Positions 2,072 to 30,556 of a DNA stretch of 32,951 nt are shown here, in pieces. The notes beneath the pieces were generated by a model. That model searched no databases and had not been told where the DNA came from. It was given only the letters and a program-made list of their open reading frames with translations. The stretch covers positions 1 through 32,951 of the forward strand of contig QHYI01000141.1 of the NCBI GenBank assembly GCA_003223245.1, in the 5' to 3' direction. Source of the DNA: Acidobacteriota bacterium. Lineage in GTDB: Bacteria > Acidobacteriota > Terriglobia > Acidiferrales > UBA7541. Positions within the stretch are counted from its first letter, which is position 1, and every line of letters begins with the position of its first letter. The position numbers and the translations under genes are program-made.

Positions 2072-3427
2072 TTATCGTTTGTAGATTACGCCGCCCTTCA
2101 TCACGAACGAGACATGCTGCGTGACGCCGATGTCGTCGAGTGGATTCCCGGGCACCGCGACAACGTCGGCGAAATATCCGGGCTTCAAATCGCCAATCTG
2201 CCCCTGCCACATAAGCACTTTCGCGCCTTCGAGCATGTCCGCCTGCAATACCGCGAGCGGCTTCATTCCGTAACGCACCATGAGCACCAATTCGCGCGCT
2301 TGCGTGCCGTGCGGGAAAGGCCCAACGTCGGAGCCGACGGCCAACGGAATGCCCGCAGCAATTTGTTTTTTGAACTGTTGGATGTGGTAATCGAGGGATT
2401 CGTGCTCGGCCTTTGCCATCGTGGGATTCTGCGCATGGTCCGCGAAATACTCAAAAATAGCAAACGTAGGAATCGCGGGAATATCTTTCTCACGCATGGT
2501 GCGCATGGTTTCATCACTTAACTGCGCGGCGTGATCAATGGACTCGCCGCCGGCTTGCACGGCCCACAGTGCTCCCGGCTCGCCCATACAGTGCACGCCC
2601 ACCTTGGTTCCCAGGCGTGCTGCTTCCTGCACGGCGGCAGCGAGTTGCGCTTCGGTGTACTGATATTGCGAGGTGAATTGCCCGTCGCGGAAAATGTCGC
2701 GGCCGGTTTCGTAAATCTTCACGAAGTCGGAACCTTCTTTATGCTGCTCGCGGATCGTCGCGATGAGTTCGTCCGTGGTGTTCGCGTAATCGGCGTTTCC
2801 CAGCACATGCTGTGCGGGATTGAAACCGATAGCGTCCTCGTGTCCGCCAAGAATGGAAATCGCGTTGCCGCTGACGCGCAGACGCGGCCCGGGAATTTCT
2901 CCGCGATTGATGGCGTTGCGCACGGCGGTGTCTGCCGAGCCGGCGCCTTCGGTGCCCATGTCGCGTTCCGCGGTGAAGCCTGCCATCAAATCGTCGCGCG
3001 CAGCAAGCGTTGCTTGAATGGTGCGCTGCGCCACAGACTCCTCGACGGTCTGCAAGCCCTCGTCGCCCGGATGGAGGAACAGATGGACGTGCGCGTCGAT
3101 CAGGCCGGGGATGAGCGTCGTATCACCCAGGTCAATCGTCTGCGCATCCGCGGGATGCGTCACCGACTGGCCCGCTTCCGCGATTTTGTCGCCGCGGACC
3201 AAGACTTCTCCCGGGCTGATAGTTTTGCCCGATTCGATGTCAAGCAGGCGCGCGGCGTGCAGTACGATCGGGTGCTTCGGCGGCGCGTAAGTATGTTCCC
3301 AGCCTGTTTGCATCTGCGCTGAGGCGCGCGGCGGCACAAACGTCGCGACCGCTGCAAAACAAACGGCAAACCAAAACAGAACGACGGAACTAGGCCTCGG
3401 GTTAAGACGGCGGCAGTGTTTGTTCAT
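2072..3427 (-). CDS. Secreted amidohydrolase-family metal-dependent hydrolase
   Basis: The 451-residue protein has an N-terminal hydrophobic segment (about 15-37, ending in RASA) that acts as a signal peptide. A typical amidohydrolase composite beta domain follows, then a TIM barrel. The metal and catalytic residues are visible in order: HxH in LIDAHVHLF (H113, H115), the bridging Lys in FVKIYE (K237), H279 in VGVHCMG, H299 in SIDHAAQ and D367 in AVGSDVGPF. The C-terminus returns to the beta domain (LKPGYFADVVAVPGNPLDD). This is the imidazolonepropionase / Xaa-Pro dipeptidase-like branch, whose exported members cleave cyclic amides or dipeptides. The true substrate cannot be read from sequence. 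It is monocistronic on the minus strand. Confidence 0.9.
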   Translation of the reverse strand: MNKHCRRLNPRPSSVVLFWFAVCFAAVATFVPPRASAQMQTGWEHTYAPPKHPIVLHAARLLDIESGKTISPGEVLVRGDKIAEAGQSVTHPADAQTIDLGDTTLIPGLIDAHVHLFLHPGDEGLQTVEESVAQRTIQATLAARDDLMAGFTAERDMGTEGAGSADTAVRNAINRGEIPGPRLRVSGNAISILGGHEDAIGFNPAQHVLGNADYANTTDELIATIREQHKEGSDFVKIYETGRDIFRDGQFTSQYQYTEAQLAAAVQEAARLGTKVGVHCMGEPGALWAVQAGGESIDHAAQLSDETMRTMREKDIPAIPTFAIFEYFADHAQNPTMAKAEHESLDYHIQQFKKQIAAGIPLAVGSDVGPFPHGTQARELVLMVRYGMKPLAVLQADMLEGAKVLMWQGQIGDLKPGYFADVVAVPGNPLDDIGVTQHVSFVMKGGVIYKR

Positions 3428-4088
3428 AGCGTCGGGATCATACCACTGAGCGCATCGCTAATCGGTACGTGCGTTGCCGACGTGCCCAAACTACTCCGCC
3501 CGAACCCGCCTGAGTGGTCGGAAAACAGGTAAACTGAGAATCTAGGCCGATATTTTCCGGCTAGGACGTCGTGCACCCACAATCGGCACCCATGACAACG
3601 AGCCCGTTGACTGATCAAATTGGTGTTGAATCCCTGTAACTCAGTCGAGAGAGCGGACCAGCTTTTGCACCCATGTGGCGAAGTTTTGCCAAAAGGCGGT
3701 TCGCCCAATCGGAATTCGCGTTTGCTGTAGAACAATCAGGAGGCAAATCTATCTCCTGCTGACGGTTCTTCGGATTTTGATTACCGGAATCGTAGCAGTT
3801 TCATACTTGAATCATTTGATGTATCCAGAGGCTCTCTCGAGGAATGACGTGACCCGCGCACTCACTCGCGCGCCTCGTCAGGCTATTGGTTACGCGGTGT
3901 TCCCCGTGGAGCGGCGAGTTGACGAACTTGATGCGCCTGACCACATTCAGACGGAGGCTGCGCAAGACGGAAAAGGCTCTGGCTGAGGTATTTCCGATCA
4001 AGGCTAGCGGCCATCCGCAAGTTGGTTAACCCGCACATGGCGCCCGTGACTTGCTTTTGTGCAAAACCTAACATGCCTTGCCGATAGC
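3428..4088. other. 661-bp region without a supported gene
   Basis: The amidohydrolase leader occupies the right-hand neighbourhood of 3427. The remaining frames on either strand (for example 3675-3986 plus and 3801-4001 minus) show no recognisable domain and no ribosome binding site. The stretch immediately left of 4089 abuts a LacI remnant and may itself be debris from the rearrangement there. I could not assign it. Confidence 0.5.
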
Positions 4089-4188
4089 AGTCGCGCTGAT
4101 CGAGCGCGAGTCCACGGCCATTTGCCGTGAACGTGCACGCGAGCTGCAATCGGACACCAAGAAGCAGCAAGGCTATGCCGACCACTGA
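4089..4188 (+). pseudogene. LacI-family regulator, C-terminal remnant
   Basis: Read on the plus strand, this stretch encodes about 32 residues, ALIERESTAICRERARELQ and so on, ending GYADH then TGA at 4186-4188. It matches almost residue for residue the C-terminus of the intact LacI regulator at 27453-28571, which reads ALIERESTAICCERAREPQ and ends GYADH. Homology stops abruptly near 4089, so the DNA-binding and sugar-binding domains are missing. The remnant overlaps the 3' end of the convergent GH51 gene by 16 bp (4173-4188), exactly the geometry seen at the other locus. It is not expected to yield a functional product. Confidence 0.88.
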
Positions 4189-5801
4189 ATTGCAGTGTAG
4201 GAGCGCGGGGGGACCTCGAACTTCGTACGGCCGTTAGCGGTAGTAGGTTTCGCAAAGGTTTGCGGAGCTACGTTCAGGGGAGCTTCAAAAGTATTGAAAG
4301 CCTTCAGATCTGTACCGGTCAAAACGGTGCCGACGAGCACTTGACCCGGACTTTTGTCTTGCCAAGAGATCTCCACGACGTACGGTTTGGACAGATCACG
4401 ATTCAGAATGAATAGGGCAACTTTTCCATCCTGAGGATTCAAGGTACCCGCGACGTCCACGAACGGAACCTGACCCATGTTCGAAACTTCATACGCCGGA
4501 GATTCTACCAACAGATTGAGGACCGAGCCGCGCGCATACTGAAGCGCCCAAGTATAGGGATAGTAGATGGTCTGGTGAAGCAAACCATTTGCATTGGTCA
4601 TGATGGGAGCGATGACATTGATCAACTGTGCCAGGCAGGCCACTTTAACGCGATCCGCATGACGAAGCAGAGAGTTAGCCAGGCCCCCGACAAGCAACGC
4701 GTCTTCAAGGTTGTACACTTCCTCCAACAAATGCGGTGCCTGCTGGTGATGTCCATTCGTGGCGTCGCCGCTGCGCGCGCGGTACCAAACGTTCCACTCG
4801 TCAAACGACAGCCACAATTTCTTCGGCGAGCGTTTGTGCCCGCCGACGAGGTCGCATACAGCTACGGTCTCTTCAATTTGTTTTTCCATGCTCAAGTTCA
4901 TTGCAAGGAACTTCGCGCTGTCGCCGCCTGTTTCCTGCCCGCTGTTTGAAAAATAGCGGTGAAGCGAGAGTCCGTCCACATACTCGTAACATTGCTCCAG
5001 AACTTCGCGATCCCATTCCAGATAGGTGGGCATGAACGGGCCGCTTGACCCACACGCGATCAATTGCAGTGAAGGATCTACGTACCGCATCTGCCGGGCA
5101 GCATCCTGCGCTTTCAGCCCGTACTCGGTAGCCGTCATGTGGCCGATTTGCCAGGGACCATCCATCTCGTTGCCCAGACACCAGTGTTTGACCCCGTAAG
5201 GCTCCGCAAATCCGTGCTTGCGGCGAAGATCGCTCCACTTGGTTCCCTTATCTACGTTGCAATACTCGACCAGGGCGGCCGCTTCTTCGGGAGTGCCGGT
5301 TCCAAGATTAAGGCCCATTAACGGCTCGGTGCCCACGGCTTTACACCAGGCCATAAATTCATTCGTACCGAACTGATTTGTGTTGATCGAGTTCCAAGCC
5401 TTATCAAGCACGCGCGGACGGCTCTCCTTGGGGCCGACACCGTCGAGCCAGTTGTAGCCGGAAACGAAATTGCCGCCCGGATAGCGAATGATGGGAACTC
5501 CCATCTGGCGCACTTCTTCCATAACGTCCTTGCGGAATCCGTTGGCATCCGAAAGTTTCGAACCCGGCTCAAAAATGCCTTCGTAAATTGCACGTCCCAA
5601 GTGCTCCAGGAACGATCCAAAGAGATTGCGGTCGAGCGGCGCCGTGATACGGCGTGAGTCAAGATAAACCCTGGCCGTGTCGCCGGAGCCTGGCCCGGGT
5701 TGACCACGCAGGAGAGAATCGCCAAATAGAGAGGTCAGGCCCCAGGCCATTGCTCCGTTTGCAGCTTGGCGCAAAAAACGCCGCCTTTCATTGGAAAACA
5801 T
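4173..5801 (-). CDS. Exported GH51 alpha-L-arabinofuranosidase
   Basis: I chose the ATG at 5799-5801 (542 residues) over the longer frame beginning at 5876 because AGGAG lies about 9 bases upstream and the protein then begins with a Tat-type signal, NERRRFLRQAANGAMAW. The GH51 fold follows: FGSFLEHLGRAIYEG near the start of the barrel, IIRYPGGNFVSGY, the acid/base Glu in LGNEMDG (E212) and the nucleophile Glu in SFDEWNVWY (E335). A C-terminal beta-sandwich ends in YTAIQW. GH51 enzymes remove alpha-L-arabinofuranosyl side chains from arabinan or arabinoxylan. It is divergent from a GH39 enzyme and probably co-regulated with it. The last ~92 codons are duplicated as a remnant at 27191-27468. 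Confidence 0.95.
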   Translation of the reverse strand: MFSNERRRFLRQAANGAMAWGLTSLFGDSLLRGQPGPGSGDTARVYLDSRRITAPLDRNLFGSFLEHLGRAIYEGIFEPGSKLSDANGFRKDVMEEVRQMGVPIIRYPGGNFVSGYNWLDGVGPKESRPRVLDKAWNSINTNQFGTNEFMAWCKAVGTEPLMGLNLGTGTPEEAAALVEYCNVDKGTKWSDLRRKHGFAEPYGVKHWCLGNEMDGPWQIGHMTATEYGLKAQDAARQMRYVDPSLQLIACGSSGPFMPTYLEWDREVLEQCYEYVDGLSLHRYFSNSGQETGGDSAKFLAMNLSMEKQIEETVAVCDLVGGHKRSPKKLWLSFDEWNVWYRARSGDATNGHHQQAPHLLEEVYNLEDALLVGGLANSLLRHADRVKVACLAQLINVIAPIMTNANGLLHQTIYYPYTWALQYARGSVLNLLVESPAYEVSNMGQVPFVDVAGTLNPQDGKVALFILNRDLSKPYVVEISWQDKSPGQVLVGTVLTGTDLKAFNTFEAPLNVAPQTFAKPTTANGRTKFEVPPRSYTAIQWSA

Positions 5802-6045
5802 TTGTTTGCTCTCCTGGTGCTTGGTGGCCGCAAAATTCCGTCGGAAATGTGCCAGTTCCTTGTGTGGAGGAACCAACTAAGCTAACGGCGTCCGAGCGGC
5901 CCAAACGCCGGCTGCCTCATCCGTTTTTCGCAGGATGCGAGCAACCGTTTACCACATATCGCCTATCACCAGCAAGTTGTTCGAGCGAGGAGCTTTATTC
6001 GCTTGAGAAAACCATTACAGCTTATCGACCAGGCTCGGGGGATGT
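5802..6045. promoter_or_regulatory. Divergent GH51/GH39 intergenic region with a LacI-type operator candidate
   Basis: This 244-bp spacer serves two divergently transcribed glycoside hydrolases. At 5941-5952 the sequence gcaaccgtttac contains AACCGTTT, which fits the AANCGNTT core with central CpG typical of LacI/GalR operators. It lies about 95 bp from the GH39 start. Clear -35/-10 pairs were not resolved. The operator reading is inference: such an 8-mer is expected several times by chance in a window of this size. Confidence 0.4.
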
Positions 6046-7803
6046 ATGATGCGGGAAATTAAGCTGGAGGCCGAGAAACGAATGAAAGTGCCGCGAAGAA
6101 TACTCTTCATAGCAGCCATGATTTCGGCGCTCACACCGGTGAACTCAAACGTTGGCCAGGCGTTAAGCACTCCGGTAACAAAGGTGCGGCCCACAGTAAC
6201 GATCGAAGTGGATGCATCCAAACCTTCTGGGCCGTTGCCGCGGATTTGGAGCTATTTTGGTTACGACGAACCGAATTTCACGTACAGCGCGAATGGGAAA
6301 AAGCTGCTGAAGGAACTAGCTCAGTTGAGCCCTGTTCCTATCTACCTTCGCACCCACAACCTTTTCACGAGTGGCGACGGCACGGGCTCATTGAAATGGG
6401 GGTCCACCAACGCCTACACGGAAGACCCACGAGGCCAGCCGGTGTACGACTGGACGATTGTGGATCGCATCTTCGACGCGTATCAGGAGGTTGGGGCACG
6501 TCCGTTGGTGGAGATCGGCTTTATGCCCGAAGCCCTGACGACCGGGCCTCCTCCTTATCGGCATAACTTTCCCAAAGATTTCGCCACCGGATGGAGTTAT
6601 CCGCCAAAAGATTACGTGAAGTGGGCCGAACTTGTCTCTCAATTTGCGAAACACTTGCGCGAAAGATACGGCGTCGCGGCAGTGAAAATGTGGCTATGGG
6701 AGGTCTGGAACGAGCCGGACATTTTCTATTGGCACGGGACTCCGGAAGAGTACTTCCAGTTGTATGACGTTTCCGCCGACGCAATACGGCGTGTCCTACC
6801 TGGAGCAAGCATCGGTGGTCCGGACAGCACCGGCCCAGGAAACCTACGGGCTGCAAATTTCTTGCGTCTGTTTCTCGATCATTGTGCCCATGGAAAGAAC
6901 TATGCAACGGGCAAAACCGGAGCGCCCCTGGATTTCATAAGTTTTCATCCCAAAGGTTCGCCCGAATGGGTGGATGGGCATGTGCGGATGGGGCCTTCAG
7001 AGCAATTGAAGGCGATCGACGCCGGTTTCAAAATTGTGGGGAACACTCCGGAGTGGCGGAACACTCCGATCATTCTAGGAGAGAACGACCCGGAGGGATG
7101 CGCCGCGTGCTCTGCAAAAGAACGGCCCCAAAACGCATACCGGAACGAATCACTCTACGGAGCTTATACGGTTGTCATTCTAGATTGCGCGATGAAGCTG
7201 GCGAAGGAGGACGGTGTGAACCTCCAGGGCTCCGTTACTTGGGCATTTCAGTTCGATGGGCAGCCGTATTTTGAAGGTCTCCGAGAGTTAACAACAAACG
7301 GAATCGATAAGCCTGTGTTGAACGCGTTTCGCATGCTCGGCTTGCTCGGAGAGACACGACTCACGGTTACAAGCGGTGCCGCGATTTCTGTGAGAGAGAT
7401 CGAGCAAAAAGGAGTAACCGCACAGCCGGACCTGGATGCCGTCGCGGCGCGGAAAGAAAAGGAAGTGGAAGTCCTGGTCGTGAACTATCACGATCATGAC
7501 GTGCCATCGGACGCCACCGCGGTTGATTTGATTCTCAAGGGGCTTCCTGCAAGGTTGGACCGCGCGCTCGTAGAGCAATACCGTTTAGACGCGACCCACA
7601 GCAACGCGTACACGCTTTGGAAGCAGATGGGCCAACCCCTGCAGCCAACGTCGGAACAATACGAGCGGCTTGAGATTGCCGGACGCTTAGAAATGGAAGG
7701 ACCGCCCGACTGGGCGAGGGTCGTGGATGGCACGGTTCGCCGCGCGTTCTCACAACCCAGGGAAGGATTGTCTCTTTTTCTGTTCAAGTGGGATGCGAAA
7801 TAG
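6046..7803 (+). CDS. Secreted GH39-family glycoside hydrolase (beta-xylosidase-like)
   Basis: The protein has 585 residues from 6046; an in-frame ATG at 6082 puts the signal peptide (KVPRRILFIAAMISAL) directly at the N-terminus and may be the true start. The barrel domain shows the GH39 landmarks: YLRTHNLF near the beginning, the acid/base Glu in WLWEVWNEPDIFY (E223), SFHPKG and the nucleophile Glu in IILGENDPEG (E346). TWAFQFD follows, then a C-terminal beta domain. GH39 members include beta-xylosidases and alpha-L-iduronidases; the exact substrate is not determined. Beside a GH51 arabinofuranosidase, xylan or arabinoxylan oligosaccharides are the natural guess. It is slightly longer than the ~500-residue classical xylosidases. 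Confidence 0.88.
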   Translation: MMREIKLEAEKRMKVPRRILFIAAMISALTPVNSNVGQALSTPVTKVRPTVTIEVDASKPSGPLPRIWSYFGYDEPNFTYSANGKKLLKELAQLSPVPIYLRTHNLFTSGDGTGSLKWGSTNAYTEDPRGQPVYDWTIVDRIFDAYQEVGARPLVEIGFMPEALTTGPPPYRHNFPKDFATGWSYPPKDYVKWAELVSQFAKHLRERYGVAAVKMWLWEVWNEPDIFYWHGTPEEYFQLYDVSADAIRRVLPGASIGGPDSTGPGNLRAANFLRLFLDHCAHGKNYATGKTGAPLDFISFHPKGSPEWVDGHVRMGPSEQLKAIDAGFKIVGNTPEWRNTPIILGENDPEGCAACSAKERPQNAYRNESLYGAYTVVILDCAMKLAKEDGVNLQGSVTWAFQFDGQPYFEGLRELTTNGIDKPVLNAFRMLGLLGETRLTVTSGAAISVREIEQKGVTAQPDLDAVAARKEKEVEVLVVNYHDHDVPSDATAVDLILKGLPARLDRALVEQYRLDATHSNAYTLWKQMGQPLQPTSEQYERLEIAGRLEMEGPPDWARVVDGTVRRAFSQPREGLSLFLFKWDAK

Positions 7804-7872
7804 GGCCTTCAATCTGCCCCGTCTGTGCGCCAGCACTCTTTACTAGGGTTGGTGAGGCATCTGGAGGCACGG

Positions 7873-8183: not shown

Positions 8184-8414
8184 TCACCGCAAGCCCTTGT
8201 TTGATGCGCTAGAAAAGCACGACAGCATGCTCCAGCGCGGCGATGGCTGCCTGGCGTGTGACGGGATGGAAACTCCGCCAAGAATTTCGTCCAGAGTGTG
8301 GCCGCCTTCGAGGTAATCGAGTAAGTTCTTGAAAGGCACGCGTGTCCCCCGGAATACTGGTATGCCGCCCAGGATTTCGGGATCACGAACGATAACCTTA
8401 GCTGGGGCGCTCAT
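8184..8414 (-). pseudogene. DUF433-family antitoxin, frameshifted C-terminus
   Basis: The first ~45 residues are a textbook DUF433 protein: VIVRDPEILGGIPVFRGTR, then VPFKNLLDYLEGGHTLDEI. DUF433 proteins are usually antitoxins of VapC-like or related toxins. After DEI the annotated frame loses the family pattern, but the other frames restore it piecewise: LAEFPS, then VTRQAAIAALEHAVVLF followed by TAG at 8209-8211. Two apparent single-base insertions, near 8282 and 8267, explain this. The reading frame as it stands therefore ends in a scrambled tail. Its ATG overlaps the stop of the upstream gene (ATGA at 8411-8414). Confidence 0.8.
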
Positions 8415-8719
8415 ACTCGTTTCTCTTTAATCCGCAATTTCAAAGCCTCAATCTCCTGCTTGGTCATGCCTTGCAGAGCCATCGCTGTGGCCAGATACAA
8501 AGCGGGAACGTGTTTCATTTTGTTGCCGCGCGCCACTTTGCTACGGAGTTTCTGTACTTCTGGGTCAGCGCCCACTTTCAAAAACACTTCATACGCATCG
8601 GGGATGGACAGAGTCTTTTCAATCAGGCCATGCTTAACAAGAATGCGATGATACGAAGGTACTGCCAACGCAGATGGATGAGTCTGCGGAGCGTGCTTGT
8701 TTTGTTTTGGGTGTTTCAT
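8411..8719 (-). CDS. Small hypothetical protein upstream of a DUF433 antitoxin
   Basis: I took the ATG at 8717-8719 (102 residues) rather than the longer frame from 8839, because the extra N-terminus is low-complexity and unrelated in composition. The protein is basic and helical (YHRILVKHGLIEKTL, ADPEVQKLRSKVARG, MTKQEIEALKLRIKEK) with no recognisable domain. The stop overlaps the DUF433 start by ATGA, so the two were translated as an operon. The position would suit a TA partner, but it lacks a PIN or other toxin signature and I do not assign one. Confidence 0.6.
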   Translation of the reverse strand: MKHPKQNKHAPQTHPSALAVPSYHRILVKHGLIEKTLSIPDAYEVFLKVGADPEVQKLRSKVARGNKMKHVPALYLATAMALQGMTKQEIEALKLRIKEKRV

Positions 8720-8881
8720 TGCACTATGCTGACACGTTTTCTCAGTCCGGTCATTTCTTTTGGCGCTCCTAACGACCGGATTGTTCAATTGTAGACAGAC
8801 AGATGGTCCCGACGAGTGGTATGCTGTGTGTGTTTGCAATCTGTTTGGCGGGATTTGACGAAATCCTGACTTTACAATGGG

Positions 8882-9907: not shown

Positions 9908-9940
9908 GGGCAGCGTTCTAACCAACTGAACTACGTCCCC
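9908..9940 (-). pseudogene. 5' half of a tRNA gene, probably tRNA-Asp
   Basis: Reverse-complemented, the sequence begins GGGGACGTAGTTCAGTTGG and continues TTAGAACGCTGCCC. That is a complete acceptor 5' strand, D-arm with A-box, and the 5' side of the anticodon stem. After the anticodon-stem position similarity ends: no 3' stem strand, T-arm (GGTTCGA) or CGTCCCC closing strand follows within 100 bases. The TAGTTCAGTTGGTTAGAA pattern is typical of tRNA-Asp. It is best read as a gene truncated at the anticodon loop. Confidence 0.55.
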
Positions 9941-10310
9941 AACCGTGGAATCAACGCGCTCCCCCTTTCTTGGATGTACCCGATTTTATGAATTTTCCCT
10001 GGTCCTGGAGGTCGTGCCACGTCAAAAAAAAACGCTCTGGGCGCCGGGTAGCGCGAAATTGTTGGGTAATAAGAAATGTAAATTTTGAGCGGTTTCTCAA
10101 TTCGCTCAGAAAGGAGCGCCCCTATTGAACAGTAGCAAATATATCGCCTATGCACGCCGCCGGGACGCTTCGTTTTTGGACTGGCTTTGCCGGCGCATAC
10201 CGCTTACGCGGTCACCGGCGAACAATGCTCCGCACGGCCAGCCGCCGTCCACACGCCCAGCAGTACGGCATGCGGGTCGGTCTCAGGCGAAACCGAACTC
10301 AACGGAAATG
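9941..10310. other. Intergenic region with hairpin-forming sequence
   Basis: No supported gene. A run of nine A at about 10023-10032 next to gggcgccgggtagcgc could act as a weak minus-strand terminator. TGAGCG...CGCTCA near 10088-10110 forms a short inverted repeat. Otherwise featureless. Confidence 0.4.
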
Positions 10311-15715: not shown

Positions 15716-16052
15716 GGAATCCTCCTGTTTGCTAACTTCAGCGCCGTTCTAGATCACCCAGCTTGAGCCCCTCTTACCTGAACCTGCGCTGTTATGCCGC
15801 ACACTCTTGCGCATTTCTGGATGGATGACAATGCACTGCGGGTGAACTGCAAGGCAACTTTAAGTCGTCAGCAAAGTCCACATGGATAGCGGGTTTGCCC
15901 TCGGGGAAAAGCTTGCGCCATGTGCCCAGAAGATAGTCCAGTTCCCTTGCGGGTCGTAAGGCAAAGGAAAATTGCAAGGGCTGAGTTAGTCGCCAAGTCC
16001 CGGCTTACCAGGAATCAGCCGTACGTGGGATAATCGTACCGGGCTTCCTTCT
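15716..16052. other. Divergent intergenic region, 337 bp
   Basis: This holds the leaders of the minus-strand secreted protein and the plus-strand NHL protein. A minus-strand frame at 15792-15977 (containing ELDYLLGTWRKLFPEG) has no recognisable homology, and I do not call it. No clear promoter was resolved. Confidence 0.4.
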
Positions 16053-17108
16053 ATGAATTCCCTCACTCGACGCAGGTTCCTTAGAGACACCTCGACGGCG
16101 ACAGCCGCAACCATGCTGCCGCCTTTCTTTCTGCAGACCTCCAGCAAGTCCGGCAATCGCCTTCCCATTGTCGGCTCCGGAGCGCACACCTATGAGTGTG
16201 TTCACGACTGGCTCGTGCCGCCGGACGGCCTGGTTTGGGGGGACACCCATGGTTTGGCGCAGGATGCGCAAGGTAACATCTATGTGGCGCACACGGTGAA
16301 CAAATCCAGCATGCGCGGAGAAGCCGTGGTGGTTTACGACGCGTCGGGGCGCTTCATGCGCGCATTCGGAGAGGAGTTTCGTGGCGGCGCGCATGGGCTT
16401 GGTTTGCGCCGCGAGAAAGGCGAGGAAGTTCTCTATCACTGCGATATCAATCAGTGCAAGATGACAAAGACCACCCTGAAGGGCGAGTCTCTTTGGGCAC
16501 ACAGCTATCCGCGGGAAGACCCTGCCTACGCAGTGCGGCCCATTGATTTTGTTCCCACCAACGTAGCCTTTGCTCCCAATGGAGATTTTTTTGTAGGGGA
16601 TGGCTACGGCTCGCACCACGTGCTGCGATTTTCGTCCGATGGGAAGTTCCTCGGAGAAGTCGGGCGGCCGGGCCACGGCGATGGAGAATTCGACACGCCC
16701 CACGGCCTCTTCGTGGATGCCCGGGGTGAGGACCCCGTCCTTGTCATTGCGGATCGTGGGAACCGGCGCGTGCAGACTTTCTCCTTGGACGGCTCGCATC
16801 TTCACACGATCAAGCAAGAGCCGCAGCTTCGCATGCCGTGTCACTTCCATACGCAAGGCGCATGGATGGTCTGTCCGGACCTCGACAGCCAGGTTTGCAT
16901 TCTCGACGTTGAGTACAAGGTGGTTATGCAATTGGGAGACGGCGGTGCTTTCAACGGCGAGGTTGGCTCGCGCCGAAAGCAATCGCGCAGCGAATTCACT
17001 CCGGGGCAGTTCATCACGCCGCACGCGGCGATTTTCCTTCACAACGGCGACATTCTGGTTGCCGAATGGCTGCCCATCGGCCGCATCACCCTGTTGCGCC
17101 GCGTCTGA
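16053..17108 (+). CDS. Tat-exported NHL-repeat beta-propeller protein
   Basis: The 351-residue protein starts with a classical Tat signal (SLTRRRFLRDTSTATAATM). NHL-type blades follow: DTHGLAQDAQGNIYVAHTV, AVVVYDASGRFMRAFG, VAFAPNGDFFVGDGYG and VLRFSSDGKFLGEVGRPG. Then come DTPHGLFVDARG, VLVIADRGNRRVQTFSLDG and AIFLHNGDILVAEW. The spacing suggests a six-bladed propeller. The pattern HGL...D..G..YVA and DRGNRRVQ resembles the propeller of peptidyl-alpha-hydroxyglycine lyases and related periplasmic proteins. No enzymatic activity can be inferred. Tat export suggests that it folds, perhaps with a metal, before crossing the membrane. Confidence 0.88.
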   Translation: MNSLTRRRFLRDTSTATAATMLPPFFLQTSSKSGNRLPIVGSGAHTYECVHDWLVPPDGLVWGDTHGLAQDAQGNIYVAHTVNKSSMRGEAVVVYDASGRFMRAFGEEFRGGAHGLGLRREKGEEVLYHCDINQCKMTKTTLKGESLWAHSYPREDPAYAVRPIDFVPTNVAFAPNGDFFVGDGYGSHHVLRFSSDGKFLGEVGRPGHGDGEFDTPHGLFVDARGEDPVLVIADRGNRRVQTFSLDGSHLHTIKQEPQLRMPCHFHTQGAWMVCPDLDSQVCILDVEYKVVMQLGDGGAFNGEVGSRRKQSRSEFTPGQFITPHAAIFLHNGDILVAEWLPIGRITLLRRV

Positions 17109-17814
17109 GTCTTCCCGATCGACTTCCCCGCTTCGAGGACGACAATCCCATCACTCAGGTTTTGCTGCGCGACCTGGGATTAGTCTTGCCGCGGAGTACG
17201 GTCCTGATCATTTGGCCTGCCAGGCCCTGATTGAGCCGCCCCAACCACTTAACTATACGGAAGAGCATGTTCCGCTCATGTCTTCGGAGGGGGTGACTGA
17301 GGTTCTGGAAGAGGTTGCACCCGTTGCAACGAGAGGAAAAGAAATCAGTGACGGTAGCTTCCAGAGCGGATGCAACGTAGCTCGCATCACCGATTACGAG
17401 AACGTATCTATAATGCGCTCAACGCACACGTGTGATCCTTCTAGCCACGACCAGGACGTGCGCACAGCGATCACCTTCAAGCGAGAGACTTGCCCAAAAC
17501 CAGGAACTCCGCTCACGGCGACTCGGCCTTAAAGCCCGATAGGGGCTACCAAAGCAGAGTTGAAGAAAGTCGTTTGACTGATTAAGGGCTATTCTATCGT
17601 GACGTTATTCGAGGATCGCCCCTGGAACCTCCTTCAGGAGGTTCTTGCCTTAACATTTCAACTGTTGAGCTTGTTCCCGGTAGGAGTTCGCCTCATAAAG
17701 AAGCTCGCTGGCGTCATCGGCTCCCCTCCAGGCAGTGGCTCCCGTCTGTTCAACGGCACAAGTCCCGTAGACAAATCCTCCCGACTCGATTGTCCTATTA
17801 TTGAGGGTCAGGAC
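17109..17814 (+). other. 706-bp region without a supported gene; two inverted repeats
   Basis: The frames here show no recognisable protein. Two dyads stand out: GTTGCA/TGCAAC at 17314-17330, and a perfect hairpin GAACCTCCT-TC-AGGAGGTTC at 17625-17644. The latter lies ~170 bp upstream of the next start and contains an AGGAGG sequence paired to its complement. It may be a weak terminator for the NHL gene or a leader structure. Confidence 0.45.
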
Positions 17815-18291: not shown

Positions 18292-18330
18292 AGCGCATTC
18301 AGTGCAGTATAAATAACTAGAGACCGCAAC

Positions 18331-18837
18331 GTGCACCGAACTGAGGGAAATATCGCCGAGATCGAGTTCCTGTATCGCGAGCACGGGCCAGCGCTCCTCC
18401 TCTTTGCCCAGGCGGTTACGGGTGAACGAGGCCGCGCTCAAGATGCGGTCCATCAAGTGTTCCTGAGGTTGCTCGAGAAAGGGAGTCTCAGCCAAGTGGG
18501 GGACAAGAAGGCTTATCTGTTCGCGTGTGTGCGAAACGCTGCTCTCAATGACAGCAAGCTTCGGGACCGACATGCGCCGCTTGAGCCGGACTCGGCCTGG
18601 TTTCGTCCTCCCGACCGAGACTATGCGGGAGAACAGAATCTGAGACGTGCGCTAGAGGCTCTCCCGAATGATCAGCGACAAGTCATGGTTCTACACATCT
18701 GGGGCGAACTCACCTTCTTGCAGATAAGTGACCTGCTGGATCTTAGCTCGAACACAGTGGCATCGCGATACCGCTATGCCCTTGCCAAGCTGCGCGACTC
18801 CATGTTCGCGAGGGAGAATTCCTGTGCCAACTCTTGA
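18331..18837 (+). CDS. ECF-type sigma-70 family RNA polymerase sigma factor
   Basis: The 168-residue protein starts at GTG 18331. Region 2 is at about residues 10-75 (EFLYREHGPALLLFAQAVTG, AQDAVHQVFLRLLE, KKAYLFACVRNAALN). A short linker follows, then region 4 at about 105-160 (ALEALPNDQRQVMVLHIWGE, LTFLQISDLLDLSSNTVASR, YRYALAKLRDSM). The helix-turn-helix is complete. There is no region 3, as expected for extracytoplasmic-function sigma factors. The 3' end overlaps the next gene by 14 nt, which points to translational coupling. A TATAAAT box lies 20 bp upstream. The partner gene is a one-TM protein that could be its anti-sigma factor. Confidence 0.93.
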   Translation: MHRTEGNIAEIEFLYREHGPALLLFAQAVTGERGRAQDAVHQVFLRLLEKGSLSQVGDKKAYLFACVRNAALNDSKLRDRHAPLEPDSAWFRPPDRDYAGEQNLRRALEALPNDQRQVMVLHIWGELTFLQISDLLDLSSNTVASRYRYALAKLRDSMFARENSCANS

Positions 18838-19228
18838 TGATGAGCAGTTCGAGGCGTATTTGCAGCAGTTCCGCCCGTGCGTTCCGGAGCCGCTCCCGGC
18901 AGTAGAACGTCGCCATCGGGCTCGTCGCGTGTTCATCGTCGGGGCATGGGCCACGGCAGCGGTGGCCATCCTTGTTCTGGGGGCGCTCACACTACACCTT
19001 CACACTAACCGCGTCCGCGTCGCCGAAACCAGCGGGAATGCCGGAACCCCAAAGCACCTTCAGGACAGCCAGCCATTAACGATGCGGAGTGCAAATGCCC
19101 TGATGGCGAAGGCGCCGTCCTTTAAGACGATGGTCGACGACATGGCCTTTCGCTCTCAAACCGTTCCACTTCCGAAGGGTAAACGGAGCGCCGTTGCTGT
19201 GCTCGGTAAGGAGAAGATCAAGCTATGA
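18824..19228 (+). CDS. One-TM protein coupled to the ECF sigma factor (anti-sigma candidate)
   Basis: I chose the GTG at 18824 (134 residues), preceded by GGGAG at suitable spacing, over the longer frame from 18728 whose N-terminus is an out-of-phase shadow of the sigma gene. The cytoplasmic N-terminus (PTLDDEQFEAYLQQFRP) is followed by an RRHRARR patch and one membrane helix (about residues 36-57, VFIVGAWATAAVAILVLGAL). A ~75-residue periplasmic tail contains LTMRSANALMAKAPSFKTMV. The tail lacks a cysteine pair or zinc-binding anti-sigma motif (HxxxCxxC). Its position overlapping both neighbours suggests it senses or sequesters with the sigma factor; that is inference. Confidence 0.75.
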   Translation: MPTLDDEQFEAYLQQFRPCVPEPLPAVERRHRARRVFIVGAWATAAVAILVLGALTLHLHTNRVRVAETSGNAGTPKHLQDSQPLTMRSANALMAKAPSFKTMVDDMAFRSQTVPLPKGKRSAVAVLGKEKIKL

Positions 19229-20094
19229 AACACATCACCGCGATTCCATCGATTGTCCTTCTTTTACTGCTATCTGCCGGTTCCGCATTCGCTGACAAAA
19301 ATGTGTCTCTTGCAGACAATGCGGCATTGCGCTACTGGTCCGCATTCTCGGCGTTGCAAGACTCCGCTATAACGGACGAGCAGGCAAGAGAACTAAACGC
19401 GATCCTCGATGGTACGGCCCCGTACGATGATTCGAAGTACAAAGACTTGCTTGAGAAAAACAGATTGGCCTTGGAAATCATGGCCCGCGCGACTTCTCTT
19501 TCAAACTGTGACTGGGGCTTGGACTACGGGGCGGAAGACGTACCTGTTGAGTATGCCCGAAAGGCACTGGTGCTCGGGCGGCTCAACGTTCTCTATGCGT
19601 TTCACTTGTTTATTGCGGGCGACAAGGATGGAGGAGTTCGCACTCTCGCGGCCGGACTGAGGTTTTCGCATGATGTGGCGAACGGTGGATCACTTTTTGC
19701 AACGCTGATCGCAAAAGATCTTCTCGTCAATCATCTTAGAGCGATAGCCGGCGCACTCCATCTGGAGCAGCTTTCTGCAGCTCAGAGAGCGCGGTTGCAG
19801 GAAGCGGTCACGAGATTGGGGGGAGGACTCGATTGGCGAACGGCGGCAAAGCTTGATCTGGAAGGCCTTCGCAATCATTACGAAAGAGACTCAGTCGCGT
19901 CCACAGCTCTGAACCGGATTATCTCATCGTACGTCGCTGCTCTCGACGATCAGTCCAAACTGCCAACCCTAGATGAAGCGATTCACAGCGCACCGCAGCA
20001 ACTTGCGAACCTAATCCCGAATGCAAAACGCGTCCTAGAGCAAAAACAAGACTTGAGCAACACGCTTCTGCAGACACGTTCGCTGCTGCAGTGA
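19225..20094 (+). CDS. Secreted all-helical hypothetical protein, third gene of the sigma operon
   Basis: The ATG at 19225 overlaps the previous stop (ATGA), so it is translationally coupled. The 289-residue protein has a Sec signal (MKHITAIPSIVLLLLLSAG, ending SAFADKN). A helical mature region follows: ALRYWSAFSALQDSAITDEQ, CDWGLDYGAEDVPVEYARKA, LRFSHDVANGGSLFATLIAK, EQLSAAQRARLQEAVTRL and NLIPNAKRVLEQKQDLSN. One cysteine (in SNCDWGLDYG) and the conserved-looking DWGLDYG block are notable. I do not recognise a catalytic motif. Its place behind a sigma factor and a membrane protein suggests a periplasmic sensor or effector of that system. Confidence 0.8.
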   Translation: MKHITAIPSIVLLLLLSAGSAFADKNVSLADNAALRYWSAFSALQDSAITDEQARELNAILDGTAPYDDSKYKDLLEKNRLALEIMARATSLSNCDWGLDYGAEDVPVEYARKALVLGRLNVLYAFHLFIAGDKDGGVRTLAAGLRFSHDVANGGSLFATLIAKDLLVNHLRAIAGALHLEQLSAAQRARLQEAVTRLGGGLDWRTAAKLDLEGLRNHYERDSVASTALNRIISSYVAALDDQSKLPTLDEAIHSAPQQLANLIPNAKRVLEQKQDLSNTLLQTRSLLQ

Positions 20095-20206
20095 TGCTGA
20101 AAGTGCGGCCCGCTCTGTGTGGATCGCAGTCTGCGGCGACACATCCGGTTGGTCGCAGATTTTGGGCAGGAAGGAAGCAGGGCTTCGGGTAGGCGGGCGG
20201 GAATCG

Positions 20207-21384: not shown

Positions 21385-22263
21385 TTGGTTTATGATTGTG
21401 CTATTTTGTCAACCGTGGGTGTACGAACACAGGATAAGTTAAACTGGCTGCAGCGCTCCCTTCCAGAAGGGCTAGTTGCCGACGCTGCCTGGCTTGAAAG
21501 GCACGGCTACTCCAGAGCCTTGCGTAATAAATATGTTGCCCGCGGCTGGCTCGATAAAATGGCTCGGGGGGTATACCGCCGCCCAGCTCCGACCCTGAAG
21601 AGTAAGGCTCACGAGGGCCTACGGTGGGAGTCCGTCGTGATATCCCTTCAGACTCTCCTCGGATACTCATATGCAGTCGGCGGTCGAACAGCGCTCGAAC
21701 TCCAGGGGTTCGCGCATTATCTGTCCGCGCGACACCGTCAAATCCACCTCTACGGAACTCGCAAACTTCCGGGCTGGGTCTACAAGCTAAAGCTGGACGA
21801 CCGGTTTGCATTTCACAACGCCGACAGGCTCTTCAGGAGCGAAAAGATACGCTCGCACGGAAGCAAAGGCCACAGAGAAAACGATCTTCAGCAAAGCAGC
21901 TACATACAGCAATCCTGGGGACAGTGGGAATGGCCGATGGTAATGTCATCCCCCGAACGGGCCATCCTTGAATTGCTGGACGAAGTTCCGCAACGCGAAA
22001 CCTTTCACCAGGCCGATGTTCTAATAGAAGGTCTGCGCAACCTCAGCCCGCGACGGCTTCAGGGGTTGCTGACCGCCTGCCGCAGCGTCAAGGTGAAGCG
22101 TCTATTTCTGTGGTTCGCCGAACGACATCAGCACGCGTGGCTCAAAAACCTGGACTCCAACCGTATCGACCTTGGGAAGGGGAAGCGCATGCTCGTGCGT
22201 GGCGGCAAGCTTGATCCGAAATTCAAAATAACGGTGCCGGAGTCAATCGATGCCGGTGGATGA
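21385..22263 (+). CDS. AbiEi-like antitoxin of a type IV toxin-antitoxin system
   Basis: The frame from TTG 21385 gives 292 residues; a GTG at 21415 gives the more usual start just before RTQDKLNWLQ. The N-terminal winged-helix block (SLPEGLVADAAWLERHGYSR, ALRNKYVARGWLDKMARGVY, then RRP) is the AbiEi signature. The following GYSYAVGGRTALELQGFAHY and SSPERAILELLDEVP are AbiEi core motifs. AbiEi proteins repress their own promoter and neutralise the nucleotidyltransferase toxin AbiEii. The next gene begins in the overlapping position expected of AbiEii but is truncated, so this antitoxin is an orphan here. The antitoxin itself looks full length. Confidence 0.88.
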   Translation: MVYDCAILSTVGVRTQDKLNWLQRSLPEGLVADAAWLERHGYSRALRNKYVARGWLDKMARGVYRRPAPTLKSKAHEGLRWESVVISLQTLLGYSYAVGGRTALELQGFAHYLSARHRQIHLYGTRKLPGWVYKLKLDDRFAFHNADRLFRSEKIRSHGSKGHRENDLQQSSYIQQSWGQWEWPMVMSSPERAILELLDEVPQRETFHQADVLIEGLRNLSPRRLQGLLTACRSVKVKRLFLWFAERHQHAWLKNLDSNRIDLGKGKRMLVRGGKLDPKFKITVPESIDAGG

Positions 22264-22397: not shown

Positions 22398-22491
<94 letters not shown>

Positions 22492-26587: not shown

Positions 26588-26811
26588 ATCGGCGCGAATC
26601 CGTCGCGATCCCAATACAGAATTTTCAACCGGTCGCCGCGTCGCGAATGAAAGACAAACCAATGTCCACTCAGTGGATCCTCACCAATCACCGCTCGCAC
26701 CCGCTCCGCCAGCCGGTCGAACCCACAGCGCATGTCCGCAGCCTCGCTCGCCAGCCAGATCCGCGTCTCCTGCGCGCGGTCCATGGCCTGCAGACTCGGC
26801 AGCCCGATCAC
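26500..26811 (-). pseudogene. tnpB: IS66-family TnpB (Orf2), C-terminally truncated
   Basis: The frame starts with ATG overlapping the tnpA stop (ATGA at 26808-26811), as in intact IS66 elements. It shows the TnpB blocks IWLASEAADMRCGFDRLAER, IGEDPLSGHWFVFHSRRGDR and LKILYWDRDGFA. Immediately after DRDGFA (near 26594) the expected LWYKRLE...F motif is lost, and the frame runs into unrelated sequence antisense to the carbon-nitrogen hydrolase fragment. About 75 of ~115 residues remain. The transposase gene tnpC is wholly missing. Confidence 0.85.
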
Positions 26812-27184
26812 GATGCCGTCTCCACCAGCGCCAGCAACGCCCGTACCTGTTCGACATCGAATCCTCGCCCCACCACCAGGCTCCGGCCATTCGACAGCCG
26901 GATTTCAACACGCGTGTCCCTCCCCGCGCTCGGCGTGGTCTCTCTCAGTTGCACTTCCAGGAATTTAGGGGTGGTATCCTCACGCAGGCGTTTCTTCCAG
27001 ACGAAGAAGTACGCCCTACATAGCCCGCGCTCACGGCAGAACGCAGTTACCGTCTGCCCGCTACGCGCCTGCTCGGAAATCAGCTCCCGCCATTTCGTCC
27101 AGGTCTTCTTTGTGCGCCGCTTCATGGCGCAACATTGCTACACTCTCGCCACGCCCCGCAAGATGTGGTTCGTTAATCGCTCAC
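26594..27184 (-). mobile_element. IS66-family insertion sequence remnant
   Basis: The remnant contains tnpA and part of tnpB on the minus strand. The outer end (right side) is preserved: reading inward from 27184 the sequence is GTGAGCGATTAACGAACC, of the GTAAGCG-type expected for IS66 inverted repeats. The other end, with tnpC and the second inverted repeat, is deleted. The element end lies ~6 bp from the beginning of the GH51 remnant, so it seems to have inserted into the second GH51 copy. Confidence 0.82.
26808..27125 (-). CDS. tnpA: IS66-family TnpA (Orf1) accessory protein
   Basis: The 105-residue protein has the TnpA arrangement: KKTWTKWRELISEQARSGQT, VTAFCRERGLCRAYFFVWKK and RLRE, a helix-turn-helix of the transposase-8 type. 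A variable linker and a C-terminal strand-helix block follow (VEIRLSNGRSLVVGRGFDVE, QVRALLALVE). The length is normal for IS66 tnpA. It precedes the truncated tnpB with ATGA overlap. Without TnpC the element cannot transpose by itself. Confidence 0.88.
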   Translation of the reverse strand: MKRRTKKTWTKWRELISEQARSGQTVTAFCRERGLCRAYFFVWKKRLREDTTPKFLEVQLRETTPSAGRDTRVEIRLSNGRSLVVGRGFDVEQVRALLALVETAS

Positions 27185-27190
27185 TATATA

Positions 27191-27468
27191 GACGTAGCGG
27201 GCACCATGAATCCGCAAGATGGGAAAGTGGCAATTTTCGTTTTGAATCGTGACTTCCGCACGTCGTAGAGATCAATTGGCAGGACAAAAGCCCTGTTGAA
27301 GTGCTTGTCGCTACCGTGTTGACGGGAACAGACCTGAAGGCTTTCAATACCTTCGAAGCTCCCCAAAGAGTAGCTCCGCAAACGTTTGCGAAACCTGCTA
27401 CTGCCAATGGCCCGACGAAGTTCGAGGTTCCGGCGCGCTCCTGCACTGCAATTCAGTGGTCGGCATAG
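27191..27468 (+). pseudogene. GH51 alpha-L-arabinofuranosidase, frameshifted C-terminal remnant
   Basis: The plus strand reads DVAGTMNPQDGKVAIFVLNR then DFRT. After a phase change near 27262 the next frame continues VEINWQDKSPVEVLVATVLT, GTDLKAFNTFEAPQRVAPQT, FAKPATANGPTKFEVPARS, CTAIQWSA and TAG at 27466-27468. This matches the last ~92 residues of the intact GH51 enzyme at 4173-5801 nearly position by position; by eye about four in five bases agree over the first 63 bp. The catalytic barrel is absent. Homology begins within ~6 bp of the IS66 end. Its 3' end overlaps the convergent LacI gene by 16 bp. Confidence 0.92.
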
Positions 27469-28571
27469 CCGTGCTGATTCTTGCCGTCCGATTGCGGCTC
27501 GCGGGCGCGTTCACAGCAAATGGCCGTGGACTCACGTTCGATTAGTGCGGTCTTCAACACATATTCGGATCCTTCCGGAAGCGGCTCCTCTCGTTCTACT
27601 TCGGCCAACAGCGCATCGAAAGCGAGCCGGGCTAACTCCGCTTGAGACATTTGCACGGTGGTCAAAGGCGGGAGCATGAATTGCGCTAATCGGATATCAT
27701 CAAAACCGACGACGGAAAGATCTCTCGGAATCGATATGCCGTCTTCATAACACTTTCTCATTACTCCGATCGCAGTCATATCGTTGGAACAGAGAATGGC
27801 TGTAGGCTTTTTGGCCAGCGCCAGCAGGTGACCGCAAGCCAGACGTCCTCCCTCCATAGTGTGGTTCCCTTCTACAATCAGTTCCATATCCGGATCTCGC
27901 CCGATTTCGTGGATGGCCTTCAAAAACGCCTGTTTACGGGCCATCGCAGATTTGAGCATATGAGGCCCCGTGATGAAGGCAATTCTCTCGTGTCTCAGCG
28001 CCGCTACGTGCTGCACTGCCTGGCGTATACCGCTCAGGTAGTCGATCCGCAGGTTGCTGACTCGCGGACGAGGCGGACCAACATCAACGAAAACCAAAGG
28101 AACCTGTCGCAGCTTCAAGTCCTCCAGCAGCGCATCCTCCATGCCGAAGGTCATGACGGCTACGCCTTCGACCTGCCTTTCGATCATTCGGCGCACGGAG
28201 CTCTCCATCTGCTCCGGGTCGTTCATGGTGGAGGTTAATAAAATCTCGTAGTGGTGCCGAACCGCGATGGTTTCGAACACCTGGACGATTTCAGGAAAAA
28301 ACGGATTGGTTAGTTCGGACACAATAAGCCCGAAAATTCGGCTACGCCCAGAGACCAGAGCTCGCGCCTGCGTATTTGGATAATATCCAAGCTCCTTGAT
28401 GGCTCTCCAAACGCGCTGGGCGAGTTTGGGGTTAACTGTGGGAACCCGGTTGATAGCGCGAGATACCGTGGCCGTAGACACCTTGGCCCGTCTCGCAACC
28501 TCATGGATATTCAAGGCTTGTTCTTTAGTACGCACTGGTTCAGACACTCGTAAAAACGAGCAATTTAACAC
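27453..28571 (-). CDS. LacI-family transcriptional regulator
   Basis: The frame to ATG 28571 has 372 codons, but the helix-turn-helix begins at ALNIHEVARRAKVSTATVSR, ~20 residues in, so a later GTG or TTG start (for example the TTG of LNIHEV) is likely. The DNA-binding domain includes the hinge region PNTQARALVSGRS. The periplasmic-binding-like effector domain follows: IFGLIVSELTNPFFPEIVQV, HERIAFITGP, PTAILCSNDMTAIGVMRKCY, LSVVGFDDIRLAQFMLPPLT and TTVQMSQAELARLAFDALL. A sugar is the expected ligand. Its last ~30 codons are duplicated at 4089-4188 beside the intact GH51 gene, suggesting it once sat beside that enzyme and may still regulate it. Confidence 0.92.
   Translation of the reverse strand: MLNCSFLRVSEPVRTKEQALNIHEVARRAKVSTATVSRAINRVPTVNPKLAQRVWRAIKELGYYPNTQARALVSGRSRIFGLIVSELTNPFFPEIVQVFETIAVRHHYEILLTSTMNDPEQMESSVRRMIERQVEGVAVMTFGMEDALLEDLKLRQVPLVFVDVGPPRPRVSNLRIDYLSGIRQAVQHVAALRHERIAFITGPHMLKSAMARKQAFLKAIHEIGRDPDMELIVEGNHTMEGGRLACGHLLALAKKPTAILCSNDMTAIGVMRKCYEDGISIPRDLSVVGFDDIRLAQFMLPPLTTVQMSQAELARLAFDALLAEVEREEPLPEGSEYVLKTALIERESTAICCERAREPQSDGKNQHGYADH
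28547..28560. promoter_or_regulatory. Inverted repeat at the LacI 5' end
   Basis: CTCGT-AAAA-ACGAG is a perfect 5-bp dyad lying just inside the longest LacI frame. If translation starts at a later GTG or TTG it would sit in the leader, where an autoregulatory operator is common. It does not fit the AANCGNTT core seen elsewhere. Confidence 0.3.
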
Positions 28572-28665
28572 TTTGAGGCTGGGCCGGACTAGAGTATCGG
28601 CTCGCTTGCATGTCTGCTGCGACCTCTACCTGCCGCCTGAAGCAAAGATATGTGGCGGTGATGCG

Positions 28666-30405: not shown

Positions 30406-30556
30406 CTGTGAAACTCCCCGATTCGTTCGAGAGGGTTCAGCGGAGTATGACCGACATGTTCGACCATAGGAATTTACCTCACAATGGACGTGTCCTCAAT
30501 ACGGCGGCCTGAGCAAACGTTGTCGCGATCCTGGCGCCTTGCTACCATACTGGAAC
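30406..30556. promoter_or_regulatory. Divergent CRTAC1/TPR promoter region
   Basis: About 150 bp separate the two divergent genes. At 30513-30522 GCAAACGTTG resembles the LacI-type core with one mismatch. No convincing -35/-10 pairs were identified by eye. Confidence 0.3.

Follow-up and report, generated by a model that had tools for sequence, protein, structure and literature searches.

An Acidobacteriota draft genome carries parts of the same convergent gene pair at two places and in inverted orientation: a LacI-family regulator gene and a GH51 arabinofuranosidase gene that meet at their 3′ ends. Each place keeps one of the two genes whole and only the tail of the other. This raises the question of how regulator and enzyme gene came to be parted, and whether the regulator may still act on the enzyme gene from a distance. 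The stretch analyzed (the window) is the entire contig C66, 32,951 bp, of a 237-contig, 6.31-Mb draft genome coded G000; the genus set consisted of 36 genomes, G000 and 35 others.

BLASTN of the window against itself matched positions 4092-4457 with 27191-27549 of the minus strand at 82.0% identity over 366 bp (E 9.7e-102). The ungapped core of this repeat is 294 nt long with 85% identity, the longest identical run is 27 bp, and the alignment extends across the stop codons of both genes and a 16-bp overlap of their frames. A preliminary description of this DNA had placed inverted copies at about 4.1 and 27.2 kb, and its coordinates were correct to within a few bases; the 3′-3′ overlap that it reported in both copies is likewise present in the sequence and in the ends of the open reading frames. 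We refer to the two places as locus A and locus B. Locus A consists of the following features:

4092-4188, plus strand: LacI 3′ remnant, the last 31 codons (residues 342-372, 84% amino acid identity) and the stop codon
4173-4188: 16-bp 3′-3′ overlap of the GH51 and LacI frames, copy A (GH51 stop at 4173-4175, LacI stop at 4186-4188)
4173-5876, minus strand: predicted GH51 alpha-L-arabinofuranosidase gene, intact, 567 aa, likely start an ATG near 5801
5940-5953, minus strand: operator-like box upstream of GH51 A, with one core base unlike that of relatives
6046-7803, plus strand: GH39 gene, divergent from GH51 A (Pfam PF01229, 201.7 bits)

As the preliminary description held, GH51 at A is whole; the LacI piece beside it, put there at about 30 codons, was counted at 31. 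The GH51 A product matched Pfam PF06964 with 149.9 bits (cut-off 27) and NCBIfam NF051901 (ArfA) with 652.9 (cut-off 625). Its nearest named matches were mostly in Acidobacteriota draft genomes, and dN/dS to four relatives was 0.05-0.11. The LacI tail is 88% identical in DNA to the LacI gene of locus B over 97 bp and ends sharply at 4092: five relatives align from 4092-4097 onward, G003 and G018 from 4177, and a search with the B LacI found no LacI-like sequence upstream of 4092. Locus B is composed as follows:

26595-27184, minus strand: end portion (590 bp) of an IS66-family element, 91.5% identical to an IS66 copy in G006
26808-27125: tnpA of this element (NCBIfam IS66 TnpA, 57.8, cut-off 28)
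about 26593-26811: first half of tnpB (TnpB, 70.6, cut-off 50)
27184/27185: junction of the IS66 end and the GH51 remnant; the IS end is common to three G006 copies
27185-27468, plus strand: GH51 3′ remnant, 95% DNA identity to the whole GH51 gene of G012, with a 7-nt deletion
27453-27468: 16-bp 3′-3′ overlap, copy B (LacI end at 27453, GH51 stop at 27466-27468)
27453-28571, minus strand: LacI-family regulator gene, intact, 372 aa (Pfam LacI 56.5 bits, Peripla_BP_3 118.8 bits; cut-offs 27 and 26.5)
28666-30405, minus strand: FG-GAP/UnbV (CRTAC1-like) gene, a cassette neighbour in five relatives (G002, G006, G007, G008, and G012 on contig C454)
30539-32146, plus strand: TPR-repeat protein gene, outer cassette neighbour in G002, G006 and G008

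The B LacI has the N-terminal LacI helix-turn-helix and the periplasmic-binding-like sensor domain of the LacI/GalR family. It is 98% identical to the G012 protein, with dN/dS of 0.09-0.13 (NG86) or 0.23 (YN00, C-terminal part), and judged by these ratios looks maintained. The GH51 frame opposite is a relic. The preliminary description of a whole LacI with a frameshifted GH51 tail was borne out, residues from about 471 to 567 being kept with a deletion of 7 nt relative to G012. Some 95 C-terminal codons remain, in a shifted frame and with no full-length intact frame; about five sixths of the gene, its 5′ part, is gone, and no other high-identity piece of GH51 B was found elsewhere in the G000 assembly. 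Counted against G012, with one codon at the frameshift omitted, non-synonymous and synonymous changes numbered 5 and 3 in the GH51 tail and 9 and 23 in LacI; the difference (Fisher p 0.10) is only suggestive of relaxed selection on the tail. A perfect 14-bp palindrome within this tail (27377-27390) was considered as a second operator and rejected: it is the same in G012 and changed in G006, G007 and G008, the alignments to G002, G003 and G018 being too short to show its state.

Comparison with relatives identified locus B as a familiar arrangement. At E 1e-60 a LacI match was found in 27 of the 36 genomes, and the same number had a GH51 match at E 1e-30. The undivided cassette that the preliminary description proposed to look for, here a LacI gene more than 90% identical with a convergent GH51 gene, occurs in seven of the 35 other genomes (G002, G003, G006, G007, G008, G012 and G018), and the G012 cassette has the identical 16-bp overlap (724-739 of L135). 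The order CRTAC1-LacI-GH51, with the last two convergent, is common to G002, G006, G007, G008 and locus B, the TPR gene lies outside the cassette in G002, G006 and G008, and in G012 a second contig (C454) carries the CRTAC1 gene and part of the TPR gene. Since locus B has this common gene order, it was treated as the standard site. The genes around the cassette in G003 and G018 are unlike those of locus B. Looser pairs were also seen: a 65% identical LacI in G011, convergent to GH51 at a distance of about 1.5 kb; LacI genes of 68-69% identity near GH51 on the same strand in G016, G017 and G019; and, outside the genus set, a convergent pair in a Terriglobia stretch (L015) with 66% and 73% identity. 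Overall, these comparisons support the derivation of loci A and B from one convergent LacI-GH51 cassette. Within the TPR gene ARAGORN called a tRNA-Val (31677-31775), which had no Rfam match at the gathering score.

The break in GH51 B coincides with the IS66-family element, which the preliminary description did not mention. The element ends at 27184, and homology to the whole GH51 gene of G012 begins at 27185, corresponding to codon 469 of 564 in that gene. Of the three G006 copies that share this IS end, the other two stand in different surroundings. The copy in the window is truncated near 26595 and has a single end: TnpB of a reference stretch (L198) matched the window over residues 1-73 of 146 at 97% identity, and 205 residues of the TnpC from the same stretch gave no match (best E 0.89). 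The sole other match in the G000 assembly was one of 55 bp to the IS66 end, on contig C156. Because the other IS66 end and the missing GH51 B sequence are both absent, no target-site duplication can be read. Adjacent deletion is a known mode for IS66-family insertion. The present case resembles it in the IS66-type TnpA and TnpB and in the shared end sequence at the junction, and differs in having one end, 590 bp and no TnpC match. As the far part of the element and the 5′ part of GH51 are both gone, an IS-adjacent deletion would be the simplest reading.

The relative ages of the two events were estimated from synonymous divergence (NG86). Between the B remnant and the G012 GH51 gene dS was 0.05 over 71 codons and 0.10 over another 25; against the same genome LacI gave 0.08-0.10, and in the comparison that included control genes LacI, CRTAC1 and TPR gave 0.07-0.08. 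For A and G012 it was 0.83, and for A and B 0.55. Judged by these values, A differs from B and G012 as different species do. In a tree of the 366-bp repeat the B remnant grouped with G012 (98/98), A being outside and joined to them at 53.5/69; other GH51 trees were weak and inconsistent, placing A with the A-type copy of G007 (33/53) or with its B-type copy (79/63). The low B-G012 and high A-G012 divergence, together with the tree, indicate that A and B split long before B was broken. The closest relative of B is G012 and not A, and a recent duplication of the cassette within this lineage is ruled out by dS and the tree.

The closeness of B to G012 is not typical of the two genomes. Positions 27185-31237 match two G012 contigs at 96.5-96.8% DNA identity. 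In a control of 20 kb from another G000 contig (L215), G012 was 72-85% identical over seven pieces longer than 1 kb. Control genes gave dS of 0.70-2.07 for G000-G012 (n=9) and of 0.10-1.50 for G000-G007 (n=8), two of the latter being close (0.10 and 0.26) and six at 0.73-1.50. Only minus-strand control frames found in at least four of six genomes were kept; four plus-strand frames (dS 0.04-0.39 in all pairs) were dropped, each lying opposite a longer minus-strand frame. With such control identities, B as a plain vertical locus, with G012 a near relative, was discarded. The tract at 96-97% appears to mark a recent exchange with the G012 lineage; possibly it reflects a misbinned G012 contig instead, as the G012 assembly has about 740 contigs and 4% contamination and its contigs matching the window are short (8.0 and 3.1 kb). 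On either reading, the cassette is still whole in a close relative, and the IS event happened recently. A near-identical tract in two species at a syntenic site would fit replacing recombination in the distinction between additive and replacing transfer, as far as it is set out in the part of PMC11375855 considered; our tract, compared with that work, is read without direction or donor.

Locus A has a different history. Its GH39-GH51 pair is shared with contig C40 of G007, which gave a continuous 86.7% DNA match over 5256-7841; there GH51 reaches query residue 207 before the contig ends, and a GH127 gene lies on the far side of GH39. The last ~79 bp of C40 are identical to C137, the G007 contig with a whole B-type cassette, and this can explain the contig break. 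Among the 36 genomes only G000 and G007 have a GH51 gene beside a GH39 gene at least 75% like that of the window. A boundary of the A unit common to G000 and G007 was at first sight proof of a single origin; it was dropped because G008 and G012 diverge from each other in their B-type copies at this very point, and the continuous GH39-GH51 alignment was kept as the evidence for the pair. On the other side, the DNA at 3500-4110 had no match longer than 45 bp in the 35 other genomes, and matches of 36-45 bp occurred in five of them. No full LacI was seen beside an A-type GH51 gene in G000 or in G007, whose copy stops at the contig end. Locus A perhaps never had a complete LacI; as the G007 copy is cut by its contig, one may also have stood at an ancestral A. 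On these alignments we read locus A as a second GH51 unit of greater age, in which the LacI tail is a passenger. A GH51 gene without its middle (residues 26-156, then 482-566) was found directly before GH39 in G008 (contig C401; L167, 8968-9608).

Some further observations concern the window to the left of locus B. Among the matches listed for five relatives, positions 1-27184 form a patchwork whose blocks fit separate contigs of G006, G007 and G008; examples are 1203-2028 (91%, G006:C184), 16001-17132 (89%, G008:C38) and 18320-20097 (84%, G008:C261). An amidohydrolase block at 2073-3527 is 93% identical to G007:C24 (dS 0.22). Two 208-nt direct repeats of 81% identity lie within 1-608, 267 bp from start to start, with many similar sites in relatives among the matches listed. 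An element of about 330-370 bp at 8405-8772, whose frame has no Pfam match, is 86-92% identical in G002, G006 and G008 and has two copies on G002:C3, again among the matches listed. The 48 bp at 9908-9955 are 92-100% identical at many sites in relatives among the matches listed; we take them to resemble half of a tRNA, tRNA-Asp-like, and perhaps to be an attachment-site relic. An AbiEi-type antitoxin gene occupies 21385-22263, with no frame of 90 aa or longer following it before 23046, and a tRNA-Ser(GCT) gene on the minus strand (22398-22491) is a possible integration point.

Taken together, the data are probably best explained by an older second GH51 locus and a standard cassette broken by IS66, with the regulator probably acting in trans. 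Locus B would be the standard convergent LacI-GH51 arabinan cassette of the genus. An IS66-family element would have inserted into its GH51 gene at about codon 470, and a flanking deletion would then have taken the 5′ five sixths of GH51 and most of the element. Locus A would be a separate, older GH51 copy that carries its upstream box and, from LacI, the final 97 bp, stands beside GH39 and was not copied from B within the G000 lineage. The LacI at B was kept, and it probably acts in trans as a sugar-responsive repressor on the box before GH51 A. The homology, the IS junction, the loss of GH51 B, the relative divergence and the intactness of LacI are observed; the deletion, DNA binding, repression and action in trans are inferences.

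How A and B met in one genome is a further question, and an answer compatible with this account is that they are xenologues from different species of the genus, with no duplication in the direct ancestor; we regard this as a real possibility, at somewhat less than even chances. The 96-97% likeness of 27185-31237 to G012 set against control dS of 0.70-2.07 speaks for it, as do dS values to G007 of 0.35 (GH39) and 0.22 (amidohydrolase) where six of eight controls were at 0.73-1.50. GH51 identity between G007 and G008 is also mosaic: over 2.1 kb, the first 0.8 kb are 89-100% identical, the next 0.2 kb 92-93% and the rest 68-89% (last partial window excluded), and from just upstream of GH51 outwards the contigs G007:C137 and G008:C191 are 99% identical over 1.1 kb (L133, L134). 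Either GH51 has been touched by recombination or some contigs are misbinned. However, the direction of exchange is unreadable, the species being about equidistant; the shortness of the matching G012 contigs could again mean misbinning; and the two controls that are also near G007 indicate that exchange is common and not special to A and B.

The preliminary description proposed an inverted duplication of the entire cassette within the lineage, after which LacI was lost from one copy and GH51 from the other. In its favor are the complementary remnants and the homology that crosses both stops, and with both locus types present in G007 a duplication in a shared ancestor is possible. Common origin and the parting of regulator and enzyme by about 22 kb are upheld; in-lineage duplication with matched losses is contradicted by the species-level A-B divergence, by the B-G012 values of 0.05-0.10 and by the tree, which sets A apart from B and G012. 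No eroded LacI extends past 4092, and neither A-type copy, that of G007 being contig-cut, has shown a full LacI. The decay was called reciprocal, and both remnants are real, but the losses are unlike, an IS66 breakage at B and a sharp LacI edge at A. We consider this scenario unlikely.

The contig itself might be an assembly chimera, falsely joining two genomes via an IS66 copy. The window makes up an entire contig of a fragmented draft, and likeness to G012 jumps at the IS66 end: among the listed matches longer than 100 bp, those on the left reach no more than 84% (GH51 A) and are mostly under 80%, against 96-97% from 27185. Yet an element truncated near 26595, whose only other match in the assembly is a 55-bp end, is a poor repeat for a misjoin, and the GH51 tail has its own 7-nt deletion, as expected of a truly broken gene. 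A false join is thus improbable. It was also suggested that the inverted copies could drive inversion of the 4.1-27.5 kb segment. They are indeed inverted and on one contig, but at 82% identity and with no identical run above 27 bp this is very doubtful; in the matches listed for five relatives, this segment occurs only in pieces on separate contigs, so that there is no alternative orientation for comparison. Finally, an origin of the A/B match in chance or in convergently conserved protein 3′ ends, on which the preliminary description would have given way, is refuted by homology that crosses both stop codons and the overlap at E 9.7e-102, and has practically no probability left.

We return to the account of a broken cassette with an older second GH51 locus, and to what the regulator may control. 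A 14-bp box with a central CG is near-invariant upstream of GH51 in all seven aligned copies (A of G000 and G007; B of G002, G006, G007, G008 and G012). In six genomes a degenerate form of the box gave nine exact matches and a reversed control pattern ten; the number is not in excess, but the location is striking. Seven of the nine are the GH51 upstream sites, and G007 has exactly two, one ahead of each GH51 copy. The remaining two (G000:C123 and G006:C37) are inside one homologous coding frame, and were taken as chance and rejected as operators. Similar palindromes with 2-3 mismatches occur just upstream of GH51 in G016, G019 and L015, in the last also upstream of LacI, and about 37 bp upstream of GH51 in G003 and G018. 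In the 300 bp before LacI no site resembling the box to within 3 mismatches was found in G000, G002, G006, G007 or G008, and thus there is no sign of autoregulation in these five; nor was a LacI-upstream site with up to 2 mismatches found in stretches L016, L017, L203 and L204. The helix-turn-helix residues of LacI are nearly identical across the eight genomes compared.

The putative box, with its central CG, may be compared with what is described for the family: in the portion of PMC4052901 considered, most sites of LacI-family regulators are even palindromes centred on a CG pair, and local regulators make up nearly 90% of those studied. The LacI of B, about 22 kb from the intact GH51 A, may therefore be a candidate for binding the putative box before that gene, with the changed core base, and for repressing it in trans, perhaps weakly. 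Counterparts are AbfR, AauR and BauR, which the excerpted account in PMC5928203 presents as local LacI-family repressors of arabinofuranosidase genes in Bifidobacterium. The likeness, by that account, consists in a LacI-family regulator beside an arabinofuranosidase gene and a palindrome-like upstream site. Our case belongs to a different phylum and is compared by description, not orthology; further, the adjacent target is destroyed here and the intact presumed target lies elsewhere. A literature search in a limited PMC set returned no paper joining the LacI family, arabinofuranosidase and Acidobacter.

As far as the excerpts of the Solibacter (PMC3174227) and 24-genome (PMC5900883) studies go, Acidobacteria are rich in paralogues and mobile elements, and diverged paralogues near mobile elements are what we see here. 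The resemblance to those genomes extends to old acquisitions rather than recent duplications. The difference from these excerpts is that a single case is here dated against species divergence, with the disrupting element placed to the base. The case is otherwise one of ordinary genome decay by an insertion sequence, with an unusually readable separation of regulator and target. Local regulators are usually assumed to act on the adjacent gene; here the neighbour of a well-conserved LacI is a relic, and its likely target is ~22 kb off, beside a scrap of the same regulator. Annotation based on neighbours would assign the B LacI no intact enzyme target. The relatives show apparent intermediate states between a cis-linked and a trans pair, and they could, tentatively and with the odds rather against it, be arranged as stages in the relocation of a regulon: a LacI with a single neighbouring target (G012, G008), a LacI with two GH51 genes bearing the identical box (G007), and loss of the neighbour by an insertion sequence (G000). 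If that series were true, the G000 regulator would control a diverged, relocated copy whose box is already drifting. The best use of the locus would be as a dated case in which a local regulator and its neighbouring gene came apart.
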